Shown one piece after another: positions 30,126 to 55,120 of a stretch of DNA of 64,000 nt (within the stretch, counting starts at the first letter, position 1; every line of letters starts with the position of its first letter). The stretch is from contig NZ_JANZYP010000052.1 in assembly GCF_025506355.1 (NCBI RefSeq), forward strand, positions 1-64,000. The letters are read 5' to 3'. Below the pieces are notes generated by a model. The model saw only the letters and a program-made list of their open reading frames with translations, was not told the origin of the DNA and made no database searches. Position numbers and translations under genes: made by a program. The stretch is from Sphaerisporangium corydalis. Lineage in GTDB: Bacteria; Actinomycetota; Actinomycetes; Streptosporangiales; Streptosporangiaceae.

Positions 30126-31700
30126 TCAGGCGGTGTGGCCGGCTCGGAGGAGGCCGTAGGTTACGGCTTGTTCCAGGGCCTGCCAGGAGGCTTCGATGAT
30201 GTTCTCGCCGACGCCGACGGTGGCCCATTCGCCGCTGGAGTCGCTGGAGGTGATCAGGACGCGGGTGACCGCGTCGGTGCCGTGGGTGCCCTCCAGGATG
30301 CGGACCTTGAAGTCGATCAGCTCGACCTCGGCGAGCTCGGGGTAGAGCTTCTCCAGGCCGAGGCGGACCGCGCGGTCCAGCGCGTTGACCGGGCCGTTGC
30401 CCTCGCCGGTGGCGACGATGCGCTCGCCCTTGGCGTGCAGCTTGACCGTGGCCTCGCTGACGACGTCGCCGCCCGGGCGGCGTTCCACGATGACCCGCCA
30501 GGACTCGACGGTGAAGTAGCGCCGGCGCTCGCCGGTGACGGTGTCGCGGAGCAGGAGCTCGAAGGACGCGTCGGCGGCCTCGAAGGTGTGACCCTGGGAC
30601 TCCAGCTCCTTCACCCGGTCGACCAGCTCGCGGGACTGGGCGGAGGTCAGGTCGTACCCGAGGGCCTTGCCCTTCAGCTCCACCGACGCCCGGCCGGCCA
30701 TGTCCGAGACGAGCATGCGCATGTCGTTGCCGACCCGCGCGGGGTCGATGTGCTGGTAGAGGTTCGGGTCGACCTTGATCGCGCTGGCGTGCAGCCCCGC
30801 CTTGTGGGCGAACGCCGAGGTCCCGACGTACGGCTGGTGGGAGTTGGGGGTGACGTTGGTGACCTCGGTGATCGCGTGGGCGATGCGGGTCATCTCGGCC
30901 AGGGACTCCGGCGGGACCAGGTCGTAGCCCCGCTTGAGCTGGAGGTTGCCGACGACGGTGAACAGGTTGGCGTTGCCCGAGCGCTCTCCGTAGCCGTTGG
31001 CGCAGCCCTGGACGTGGGTGGCGCCGGCCTTGACCGCGGCGAGCGAGTTGGCGACCGCGCAGCCGGTGTCGTCGTGGCAGTGGATGCCGATGCGGGCGCC
31101 GGTGCCGACCGCCTCGTGGACGACGTCGGACAGCTCGTCGGGCAGCATCCCCCCGTTGGTGTCGCACAGGGCGATGACGGAGGCGCCGGCCTCGGCGGCG
31201 GTCCGCAGGACCTCCAGCGCGTAGGCCGGGTTGGACTTGTAGCCGTCGAAGAAGTGCTCGGCGTCGAGGAAGACGCGCTGCCCCGCCGCACGAAGGTGGG
31301 AGACCGTGTCGCGGATCATCGCGAGGTTCTCCCGCAGCGTCGTGCGGAGGGCCAGCTCCACGTGCCGGTCGTGACTCTTGGCGACAAGGGTCACGACCGG
31401 CGCGCCTGATTCGCGCAATGCGGCCACCAGGGGGTCGTCGGCGGCCTTCACTCCGGCTCGGCGGGTCGCGCCGAACGCGGCGAGCTGCGCATGCTTCAGG
31501 CCGAGCTCTGTTTGAGCCCGCCGGAAGAATTCGGTGTCCTTGGGGTTGGCGCCCGGCCAGCCCCCCTCGATGAAGCCGACGCCCAGGTCGTCCAGGTGCC
31601 GCGCGACGACGAGCTTGTCGGCGACGGTCAGGGAGAGCCCTTCCTGTTGCGCGCCGTCACGCAGGGTCGTGTCGTACACATGGAAGCGGTCGTCGGCCAT
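30126..31700 (-). CDS. cimA: Citramalate synthase
   Basis: CimA, 524 residues, condenses pyruvate with acetyl-CoA to (R)-citramalate, the threonine-independent entry to isoleucine. The DRE-TIM barrel starts HVYDTTLRDGAQQEGLSL, with the metal site HCHDDTGCAVAN and GYGERSGNANL; the C-terminal third is the LeuA-dimer regulatory domain. The length and the LRDGAQQEG wording fit the citramalate synthase/LeuA2 family rather than LeuA proper. ATG 31700 has GAAGGAG eight bases upstream. Immediately upstream lies a leader peptide and terminator hairpin, so expression is probably tuned by branched-chain amino acid supply. Isopropylmalate synthase activity is the main alternative. Confidence 0.9.
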   Translation of the reverse strand: MADDRFHVYDTTLRDGAQQEGLSLTVADKLVVARHLDDLGVGFIEGGWPGANPKDTEFFRRAQTELGLKHAQLAAFGATRRAGVKAADDPLVAALRESGAPVVTLVAKSHDRHVELALRTTLRENLAMIRDTVSHLRAAGQRVFLDAEHFFDGYKSNPAYALEVLRTAAEAGASVIALCDTNGGMLPDELSDVVHEAVGTGARIGIHCHDDTGCAVANSLAAVKAGATHVQGCANGYGERSGNANLFTVVGNLQLKRGYDLVPPESLAEMTRIAHAITEVTNVTPNSHQPYVGTSAFAHKAGLHASAIKVDPNLYQHIDPARVGNDMRMLVSDMAGRASVELKGKALGYDLTSAQSRELVDRVKELESQGHTFEAADASFELLLRDTVTGERRRYFTVESWRVIVERRPGGDVVSEATVKLHAKGERIVATGEGNGPVNALDRAVRLGLEKLYPELAEVELIDFKVRILEGTHGTDAVTRVLITSSDSSGEWATVGVGENIIEASWQALEQAVTYGLLRAGHTA

Positions 31701-31778
31701 GATGTCTTCTCCTTCGCGGGGGTGCTTTTCGATGCGCCGCGCGCGGTTTCTGCCCAGGAGCCGGGAACTCGGCCCAAA

Positions 31779-31863
31779 CAAAAAGACCCCTCACGGACGT
31801 GAGAGGTCTGCGCGCTGGCGGTGTCCCTTTTAGCCAGCGCGCCTGCTGATAATGAGCAGACCG
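31779..31863 (-). promoter_or_regulatory. cimA attenuator region
   Basis: On the minus strand, after the Leu-Leu-Ile-Ile codons of the leader peptide, a perfect 10-bp stem forms (GCGCGCTGGC of 31833-31842 with GCCAGCGCGC, 31810-31819), its 5' arm being the last codons of the leader. It is directly followed by the terminator hairpin (31784-31809) and U-run. A further 7-bp pairing, GGTCTGC (31856-31862) with GCAGACC (31805-31811), is possible and would compete with the terminator's 5' arm. Which fold is the antiterminator cannot be settled by eye. Confidence 0.65.
31784..31809 (-). terminator. Attenuator terminator upstream of cimA
   Basis: Read on the minus strand, AGACCTCTCACG pairs with CGTGAGGGGTCT with one mismatch, followed by a run of T. 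It lies between the leader peptide and the cimA start (84 bases before it), where a terminator only makes sense as an attenuator. Confidence 0.75.
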
Positions 31864-31871
31864 TAGAACAT
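31830..31871 (-). CDS. cimA leader peptide (MFYGLLIISRRAG)
   Basis: A 13-codon frame encodes MFYGLLIISRRAG and stop (TAA). Four consecutive branched-chain codons (CTG CTC ATT ATC) sit just before a stable hairpin and an intrinsic terminator, the layout of amino-acid attenuation leaders. The C-terminal RRAG is shared with the ilvB leader in this window. No clear Shine-Dalgarno is present; a weak promoter (GTCACA at 31904-31909 and CAGACT at 31882-31887, minus strand) would place the transcript start within a few bases of the ATG, so it may be nearly leaderless. Confidence 0.7.
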   Translation of the reverse strand: MFYGLLIISRRAG

Positions 31872-32010
31872 GGTGCTACGGAGTCTGCCACACGTGGCCA
31901 CCATGTGACGCATTGATCTCACGATTTGGGACGACCGGGGGACCGGAGGGGTGTTCTCCGAGGTGGGAACCCCTCGCGGTTCCTCACCAGAAGCCCGTCG
32001 AGGGGTAAGA

Positions 32011-54936: not shown

Positions 54937-54973
54937 CGGCTCGTTTCCTTGCTGGCTGAGCTGGGTGTGGCCA

Positions 54974-55012
54974 TAAAAAATGCCCCGCCCGCCGGTATGG
55001 CGGTGCTGGGGC
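54974..55012 (-). terminator. Attenuator terminator upstream of ilvB
   Basis: Minus strand GCCCC(A)GC(A)CCGCC pairs with GGCGG-GC-GGGGC, 12 base pairs with two bulged A residues, loop ATACC, followed by ATTTTTTA. It lies between the leader peptide and the ilvB start, about 40 bases before it. Confidence 0.85.
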
Positions 55013-55052
55013 TGCGCGCAGGCTGGGGACTCTTCGTCAGCGACCCGCGCGC
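54974..55052 (-). promoter_or_regulatory. ilvB attenuator region
   Basis: On the minus strand the last leader codons (GCGCGCGGG, 55044-55052) can pair with CCTGCGCGC (55014-55022, one G-U pair), and this stem is immediately followed by the terminator hairpin (54982-55012) and U-run. The layout matches that of cimA: branched-chain codons, leader-end stem, terminator, structural gene. Confidence 0.65.
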
Positions 55053-55120
55053 CGGCGAAGTACTACACCGTCGAGGCGGGCTCGAATGAGCCCGGCAATG
55101 GAGTCCCGAGTGATACGCAT
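55037..55120 (-). CDS. ilvB leader peptide (27 residues)
   Basis: A 28-codon frame begins [18 protein letters not shown] and ends [10 protein letters not shown], stop TGA. Branched-chain residues (Ile, Leu-Ile, Leu, then Val-Val-Leu) accumulate just before the stem-forming end, and the RRAG ending is shared with the cimA leader. The promoter places the transcript start on or within a base of the ATG, so it should be translated as a leaderless message. Known actinobacterial ilvB leaders are similar in kind; this one's sequence I do not recognise exactly. Confidence 0.75.

Follow-up and report, generated by a model that had tools for sequence, protein, structure and literature searches.

A leader peptide, hairpin and terminator conserved upstream of cimA in Actinomycetes: a likely isoleucine-sensing attenuator

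Citramalate synthase, the product of cimA, provides a threonine-independent entry to isoleucine, and the DNA upstream of cimA in Sphaerisporangium corydalis raises the question of whether this entry is coupled to the supply of charged tRNA. In a 64,000-nucleotide stretch of the genome (the window) the original prediction, made from the letters alone, had placed before cimA a leader peptide with Leu-Leu-Ile-Ile codons, a 10-bp stem formed by the last leader codons and a hairpin with a U-run, and had proposed that this arrangement ties the threonine-independent isoleucine entry to charged tRNA-Leu and tRNA-Ile. That description of the entry suits the enzyme; however, the genome also has a match to threonine dehydratase, a second isoleucine entry (TIGR01127, 435.5 bits against a cut-off of 378.75), and thus cimA is probably not the sole isoleucine entry in this genome.

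The prediction knew of attenuation of ilvB and leuA in actinobacteria and of no described cimA attenuator, and we found none among the papers listed in the literature searched, which took in few subscription journals and in which cimA may be named leuA. In the part of the paper that was available, Seliverstov 2005 covers trp, cys, ilvB, leuS and leuA in its predictions of leaders or related elements, with cimA not among them (PMC1262725), and the available part of a study of S. lividans TK24 gives eight leaders, none of them for cimA (PMC8079986). Within the available portions of the texts, the terms cimA and citramalate are both absent from PMC8079986, PMC10272879 and PMC4833913, the term cimA from PMC13236596 and the term citramalate from PMC2965389. 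The putative cimA attenuator therefore appears to be new, leader-peptide attenuators being already known for ilvB and leuS.

Layout of the cimA leader

All parts of the predicted arrangement were found on the minus strand. The cimA gene (30126..31700) matches the citramalate synthase family TIGR00977 with 654.2 bits against a cut-off of 450. Its ATG, at 31700, lies 129 nt from the end of the stop codon of a leader ORF (31830..31871) that opens with an ATG at 31871, closes with a TAA at 31832-31830 and encodes 13 residues, MFYGLLIISRRAG; the ORF, read from the sequence, is conserved in the organism's own family and in the class. A -10-like hexamer, CAGACT (31882..31887), ends 10 nt upstream of the leader ATG, a position which suggests a leaderless or nearly leaderless leader transcript. 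Upstream of the leader a divergent ORF of 239 codons starts at 31951 on the plus strand.

Codons 5 and 6 of the leader are the Leu-Leu pair CTG CTC (31854..31859), a trait of the own family only, and codons 7 and 8 are the Ile-Ile pair ATT ATC (31848..31853), the putative sensor. The first hairpin (P1) has 10 bp: its 5' arm GCGCGCTGGC (31833..31842) is made up of the last codons of the leader and begins 8 nt downstream from where the last Ile codon starts, and its 3' arm GCCAGCGCGC (31810..31819) abuts the terminator with zero spacer. The terminator, supported by folding and covariation, is a stem-loop of 11 bp with the loop GTCC (31784..31809) that opens on the base directly after the P1 3' arm. 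The U-rich run that follows, TTTTGTTT (31776..31783), reaches three bases beyond the end point first given for the element. Folding of the region 31720-31920 gave z = -5.19, and none of 200 shuffles was equally stable.

A scan of the window against Rfam at the gathering score returned tRNAs alone, with no T-box, riboswitch or other family on the leader. The best sub-threshold match on the leader was Atu_C8, a Rhizobiales sRNA (31768-31875, minus strand, 26.1 bits against a threshold of 50, E 0.003), and perhaps that sRNA has a similar leader layout.

Occurrence and conservation of the element

The sample consisted of 209 cimA upstream regions from 208 of the 316 genomes that have a cimA match; these are related sequences and not independent ones. 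The search rule required a terminator with P1 adjacent to it, and a short ORF carrying two or more Ile codons close to P1. The rule recognized 174 of the 209 regions. Among the controls it accepted none of 209 reverse complements and a single one of 2090 dinucleotide shuffles, which rules out a chance ORF next to a chance terminator. A tight geometry (7-9 nt from Ile codon to P1, 0-1 nt from P1 to terminator) was seen in 153 of the 209 regions and in no reverse complement or shuffle. A covariance model (R1) recovered 13 of the 35 regions missed by the rule, giving a total of 187 of 209 loci in 27 of 32 families. The check first proposed was an alignment within Streptosporangiales, and the element extends well beyond that order. 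An intrinsic terminator lies between leader ORF and gene, as an attenuator requires. Chance is excluded, and on this comparison of sequences the cimA leader, P1 and terminator are a real element of class-wide occurrence.

Neither the rule nor the covariance model found the element in 22 of the 209 cimA loci. These comprise all eight loci of a large-genome family (f17), all four of a small-genome family (f23), one each in f9, f21 and f32, three of nine in f24, one of four in f31, one of two in f36 and two of 125 in the own family. Both own-family exceptions (L095 and L096) are second cimA copies that have neither leader nor terminator. By eye, the cimA upstream regions of f17 (L185, L194, L202, L203, L204 and L207) have another stretch in common, around GAACCCGTC and CGTCGCGCG.

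A pattern scan of public genomes for the P1 end plus terminator gave at least 118 matching stretches, of which 80 were listed as loci. Among the matches listed, cimA starts 12-211 nt downstream in 74 of the 80 loci; the remaining six have just 17-165 nt of sequence left, such that the next gene is not visible. Hosts among the matches listed included Streptomyces, Kitasatospora, Nonomuraea, Actinomadura, Thermobifida fusca, Herbidospora, Saccharomonospora and Planosporangium, together with metagenome-assembled genomes (MAGs) of Nocardioides and Pseudonocardiales. Counting any R1 match, whether before cimA or not, the model found 208 of 296 genomes and 88 of 106 genera and left 88 genomes without a match; as R1 was trained on 66 of the cimA loci, its matches on those loci are by construction.

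The conserved signal was isoleucine. The residue preceding the last Ile is Ile in 169 of the 174 leaders, Val in four and Arg in one, a count in which Ile content is partly built in by the rule, whereas exact positions, codon choice and register are not; an Ile-Ile pair in a short ORF is the end-product signal expected of an attenuator, the controls again being the shuffles and reverse complements. The codon pairs are ATT-ATC (111 leaders), ATT-ATT (44), ATC-ATT (13), GTC-ATT (four), CGC-ATT (one) and ATC-ATC (one), and ATT is therefore present in 173 of the 174. This codon is rare in the genes themselves: 68 cimA genes use ATC 1078 times, ATT three times and ATA twice. It is less rare near the gene start, where the first 33 codons of the 209 cimA genes contain 203 Ile codons, 188 of them ATC and 15 ATT. 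The leader of a distant locus (L402) has, by eye, ATC alone. ATT and ATC are decoded by the same tRNA, and the preference for ATT could reflect either its slower decoding or a requirement for an AU stretch free of structure.

The Leu codons behaved otherwise. Leu-Leu-Ile-Ile occurs in 66 of 120 own-family leaders (with CTG-CTC encoding Leu-Leu in 62 of the 66) versus 0 of 54 leaders from other families, where Ile, Val, Ala, Arg, Ser, Thr and so on stand in place of Leu-Leu. Leucine as a general signal is thereby ruled out, and the predicted coupling to tRNA-Leu would be at most a local trait. Hence, the L/I codons expected to be conserved are so in their Ile part, and judged by its codons the signal fits cimA, an isoleucine gene.

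Both stems are supported by covariation. In an alignment of 66 of the 174 sequences (P1 loop of at most 25 nt, redundancy removed), 93.4% of P1 and terminator cells were paired versus 85.6% in shuffles, and 14 of 21 pairs had double changes, with 122 double-change cells against 34.8 in shuffles; the signal was lost when partners were slid by 1-3 columns. Within P1 it is the inner pairs that covary. The outermost three (GCG with CGC) are invariant in 66 of 66 sequences and the fourth is C-G in 64 of 66, so this GCG clamp seems to be constrained as sequence too, beyond pairing. P1 and terminator do not overlap, and the spacer between them is zero in 148 of the 174 leaders. The variable parts are the P1 loop and the stop codon, most often placed between 3 nt upstream and 16 nt downstream of the P1 start. 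Streptomyces-type leaders (L071, L075-L077, L080, L083 and L085) have a P1 loop of 48-49 nt and a register of 11 nt, and the fold of L071 has a nested helix inside the long loop. A kissing contact of GGAC in the P1 loop with GUCC in the terminator loop, which by eye can be drawn in many own-family rows, was rejected, as it is broken in rows such as L027, L057, L094 and L154.

The start of the leader and its register were also regular. A -10-like hexamer stands 3-12 nt before the leader start in 157 of 174 leaders versus 165 of 1390 control starts, a comparison favoured by the choice of leader start, which was picked to maximise the -10 score; of the 157, 12 have an SD-like motif. The available part of a study of S. 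lividans describes leaderless leader peptides (PMC8079986). Counted from the first base of the final Ile codon, P1 begins after 8 nt in 119 of the 174 leaders and after 7-9 nt in 152; this register is 11 nt in all ten leaders found by the rule in f18, which is Streptomyces-like by sequence. The ribosomal helicase lies about 11 nt from the P site, and with the Ile codon in the A site P1 would begin near the mRNA entrance of the ribosome. In the fold model the median pairing of P1 was 0.94 without a ribosome and 0.001 with a ribosome at the stop codon; with a ribosome on the last Ile codon, masked to +12, the P1 pairs that stayed free had 0.933. The constant spacing suggests that two states matter: a ribosome stalled on Ile beside a folded P1, and a ribosome at the stop codon with P1 opened. 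The leader, its Ile codons, P1, the terminator, their register and the link to cimA are all plain from the comparison.

How the leader may control termination

We consider it likely that the cimA element is a ribosome-mediated transcription attenuator that senses charged tRNA-Ile and is related to the ilvB and leuS leaders. RNA polymerase would start at or just upstream of the leader ATG, and the nearly leaderless mRNA would load a ribosome that translates the short peptide. Given ample Ile-tRNA, the ribosome would pass the Ile codons and reach the stop codon within or beside the P1 5' arm, where it would keep P1 open, the terminator would form and cimA would not be transcribed. When Ile-tRNA is scarce, the ribosome would stall with an Ile codon in the A site, and P1, 8 nt downstream at the ribosome edge, would stay folded and transcription would read into cimA. 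That the leader is translated, that the ribosome stalls, which way the response goes and how a folded P1 would prevent termination are inferred.

That stalling would be the on state is adopted from the ilvB1 leader of another actinobacterium. In the part of that study available, the proposal is that a ribosome stalled at LVVI codons permits formation of an antiterminator, and a reporter with Ala codons was low and unresponsive (PMC13236596); these tests lend support, by analogy, to stalling at such codons as the on state. Several points count against the attenuator reading. Codon changes in the S. coelicolor ilvB leader were without effect, according to the available part of PMC1262725, and 22 of the 209 cimA loci do without the element. 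In addition, P1 folds without a ribosome too, so the model would allow read-through when the leader is not translated, and a ribosome whose footprint reaches 12-13 nt beyond the A site would disrupt the first 4-5 P1 pairs.

The E. coli trp and ilvGMEDA attenuators work by stalling of the ribosome on end-product codons and a 2:3 antiterminator that overlaps the terminator. The cimA leader would share the stalling logic, but no 2:3 antiterminator was found. When a base-pairing antiterminator was sought by fold model in the 174 leaders in three ribosome states, none outcompeted the terminator. Terminator pairing probability was at least 0.5 in 169 of the 174 leaders with no ribosome, with a stalled ribosome and with a ribosome at the stop codon, the same five leaders falling below in each, and the median was 0.986 in all three states.

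As no competing structure was found, other ways for P1 to act at the switching step may be put forward: a kinetic or steric action at the zero-spacer junction, a role of P1 as a pause hairpin, or an aid to termination by stacking. The last amounts to a rival explanation with the same direction of response, in which P1 promotes termination through stacking on the terminator, and read-through follows once a stalled ribosome has opened P1. It fits the zero spacer of 148 of the 174 leaders and the footprint noted above, which would open the outer P1 pairs on stalling. We nevertheless regard it as unlikely, since a ribosome at the stop codon opens P1 even more (median 0.001), making the two states alike or reversed, and the terminator is strong by itself in the energy model.

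Somewhat less probable still is a classical trp-type attenuator, in which an antiterminator pairs with part of the terminator, in the own family GGUCU of the leader with AGACC at the terminator base. This pairing did appear when we folded 14 cut transcripts (those ending before the terminator 3' arm), in five own-family leaders (L001, L007, L009, L027 and L099). However, GGUCU would be covered by the stalled ribosome, the alignment rows by eye do not keep the pairing outside the own-family clade, and in each of the three ribosome states the terminator prevails in full-length folds. The extended pairing GGUCUGC:GCAGACC was rejected as a general antiterminator, being by eye confined to the same clade and likewise covered.

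Cut transcripts of all 174 leaders were scored by whether the terminator 5' arm was paired to anything with a mean above 0.5. This was so in 19 of 174 with no ribosome and in 91 of 174 with a ribosome at the stop codon; with a stalled ribosome it was so in 0 of 174 if the RNA was free from A-site +8 and in 46 of 174 if free from +13. The arm is thus less paired when the ribosome is stalled than when it is at the stop, the reverse of what a trp-type switch needs. Such weak competitors occur most often in the very state in which termination is expected, and this also goes against the preferred attenuator reading. A mini-hairpin in which the terminator 5' arm pairs with the 3' end of an open P1 was rejected as a competitor: in 13 of the 14 folded cut transcripts it has -2.1 to -7.1 kcal/mol and is weaker than the terminator, the fourteenth (L071) having -18.8 kcal/mol with other helices, and it is nonetheless common at the stop-codon state (the 91 of 174 above 0.5). 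Given these folds we do not file the cimA leader as trp-type.

An ordinary regulatory or structural RNA, or a protein-binding site, with an incidental ORF would account for the outer P1 pairs and parts of the terminator being kept as sequence and not merely as pairs, yet it is very improbable, as the reading frame and its Ile codons persist in leaders whose stop codon position and peptide differ, and in related leaders Leu or Val replaces Ile, depending on the gene.

Related leaders of branched-chain amino acid genes

The putative tRNA-Ile attenuator has relatives in the same genome. On the window alone R1 found an ilvB leader, P1 and terminator of the same design (54973..55120, minus strand; leader peptide 55120-55037, R1 match 54973-55072, 24.3 bits, E 6.8e-5). 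On the whole genome cimA scored 85.8 bits and the second match, of 41 bits, was a leader, MRGSTLLLSGPRRLS, with a long P1 one base from the terminator (L230 1501-1590 on contig 82, minus strand), followed by a gene that we take to be leuS. In folds of these ilvB and MRGSTLLLSGPRRLS leaders the last regulatory codon stands 8 nt before P1 and the terminator spacer is 1 nt.

An R1 search of the phylum gave a match in 66 of 296 genomes and none in 230. We fetched 40 of the 84 listed places, mostly the strongest, and by protein comparison the genes after these 40 leaders were ilvB (29), cimA or a cimA-like synthase (five), leuB (three), leuS (one) and unassigned (two). Three of the five synthases are TIGR00977 citramalate synthases over the cut-off (L391, L402 and L414), and their leaders have four consecutive Ile codons (by eye for L402). 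The fourth (L413) is a partial gene closest to 2-isopropylmalate synthases, 426.2 bits against a cut-off of 455, with LLL in its leader, and the fifth (L422) is a cimA-like synthase unassigned to a protein family, with LLLL. Leu codons precede leuS (L230 and L421) and mixes of L, V and I precede ilvB. Leaders with Val/Ile runs, P1 and a terminator stand before a leuB-like gene in L405, L412 and L423, which by kinship label belong to the same phylum but lie outside the class. A wider rule recognized the layout in 33 of the 40 fetched loci, with a register of 8 nt in 19, 6-8 nt in 29 and 3-5 nt in L398, L414, L415 and L418; it failed in seven (L399, L401, L402, L403, L410, L419 and L420). The codons change with the gene in the related leaders, and by this comparison the cimA leader belongs to a phylum-wide set whose codons follow the gene product.

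Known systems, as far as the available parts of their descriptions go, have a similar plan. The ilvB leaders of Actinomycetota (ilvB-II of Corynebacterium, PMC10272879, and mycobacterial ilvB1, PMC13236596) resemble the cimA leader in having a short uORF rich in branched-chain residues that overlaps or abuts a first stem, followed by an intrinsic terminator; by description the ilvB-II motif, with P1 over the uORF end and P2 as terminator, has the same layout. They differ in gene, which is ilvB, and in their L/V/I mixes, the cimA leader having Ile codons. The Streptomyces leuS attenuator (PMC1262725, PMC8079986) likewise has a leaderless leader, a run of regulatory codons, a hairpin and a terminator, but its codons are Leu and its gene is leuS. 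The LEU element of actinobacterial leuA also has a leader ORF with branched-chain codons; it is, however, described as a pseudoknot, with Leu codons and the Shine-Dalgarno box of leuA paired in the base stem (PMC1262725), whereas cimA has two simple hairpins, the second of them the terminator. We did not find a LEU element in the cimA leaders: Leu-Leu precedes the Ile pair in 66 of the 174, all in the own family, and the consensus is two hairpins under a pseudoknot-free model.

More tentatively, Actinomycetota may share one attenuator design for branched-chain amino acid genes, without an antiterminator that pairs with the terminator, in which geometry and not base-pair competition decides termination. 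A hairpin, its GCG clamp invariant in the aligned cimA leaders, would lie where the mRNA enters the stalled ribosome, some 8 nt from the sensor codon, and would touch the terminator with little or no spacer. Folded and wedged between ribosome and terminator, it would keep the terminator from closing at the polymerase; it would be removed by a ribosome that has reached the stop codon. The cimA copy would be the isoleucine version, with an ATT codon that is rare in the gene itself.

If the cimA element is the attenuator we propose, an isoleucine sensor would be built into the citramalate route in much of the class Actinomycetes and, beyond the class, in at least three genomes of the phylum; in the related leaders the regulatory codons follow the product of each gene. 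The measured geometry, 8 nt and no spacer, makes the mechanism of actinobacterial leaders directly testable. In strain engineering cimA is used as the entry for isoleucine and keto-acid products, and the attenuator may matter there also.
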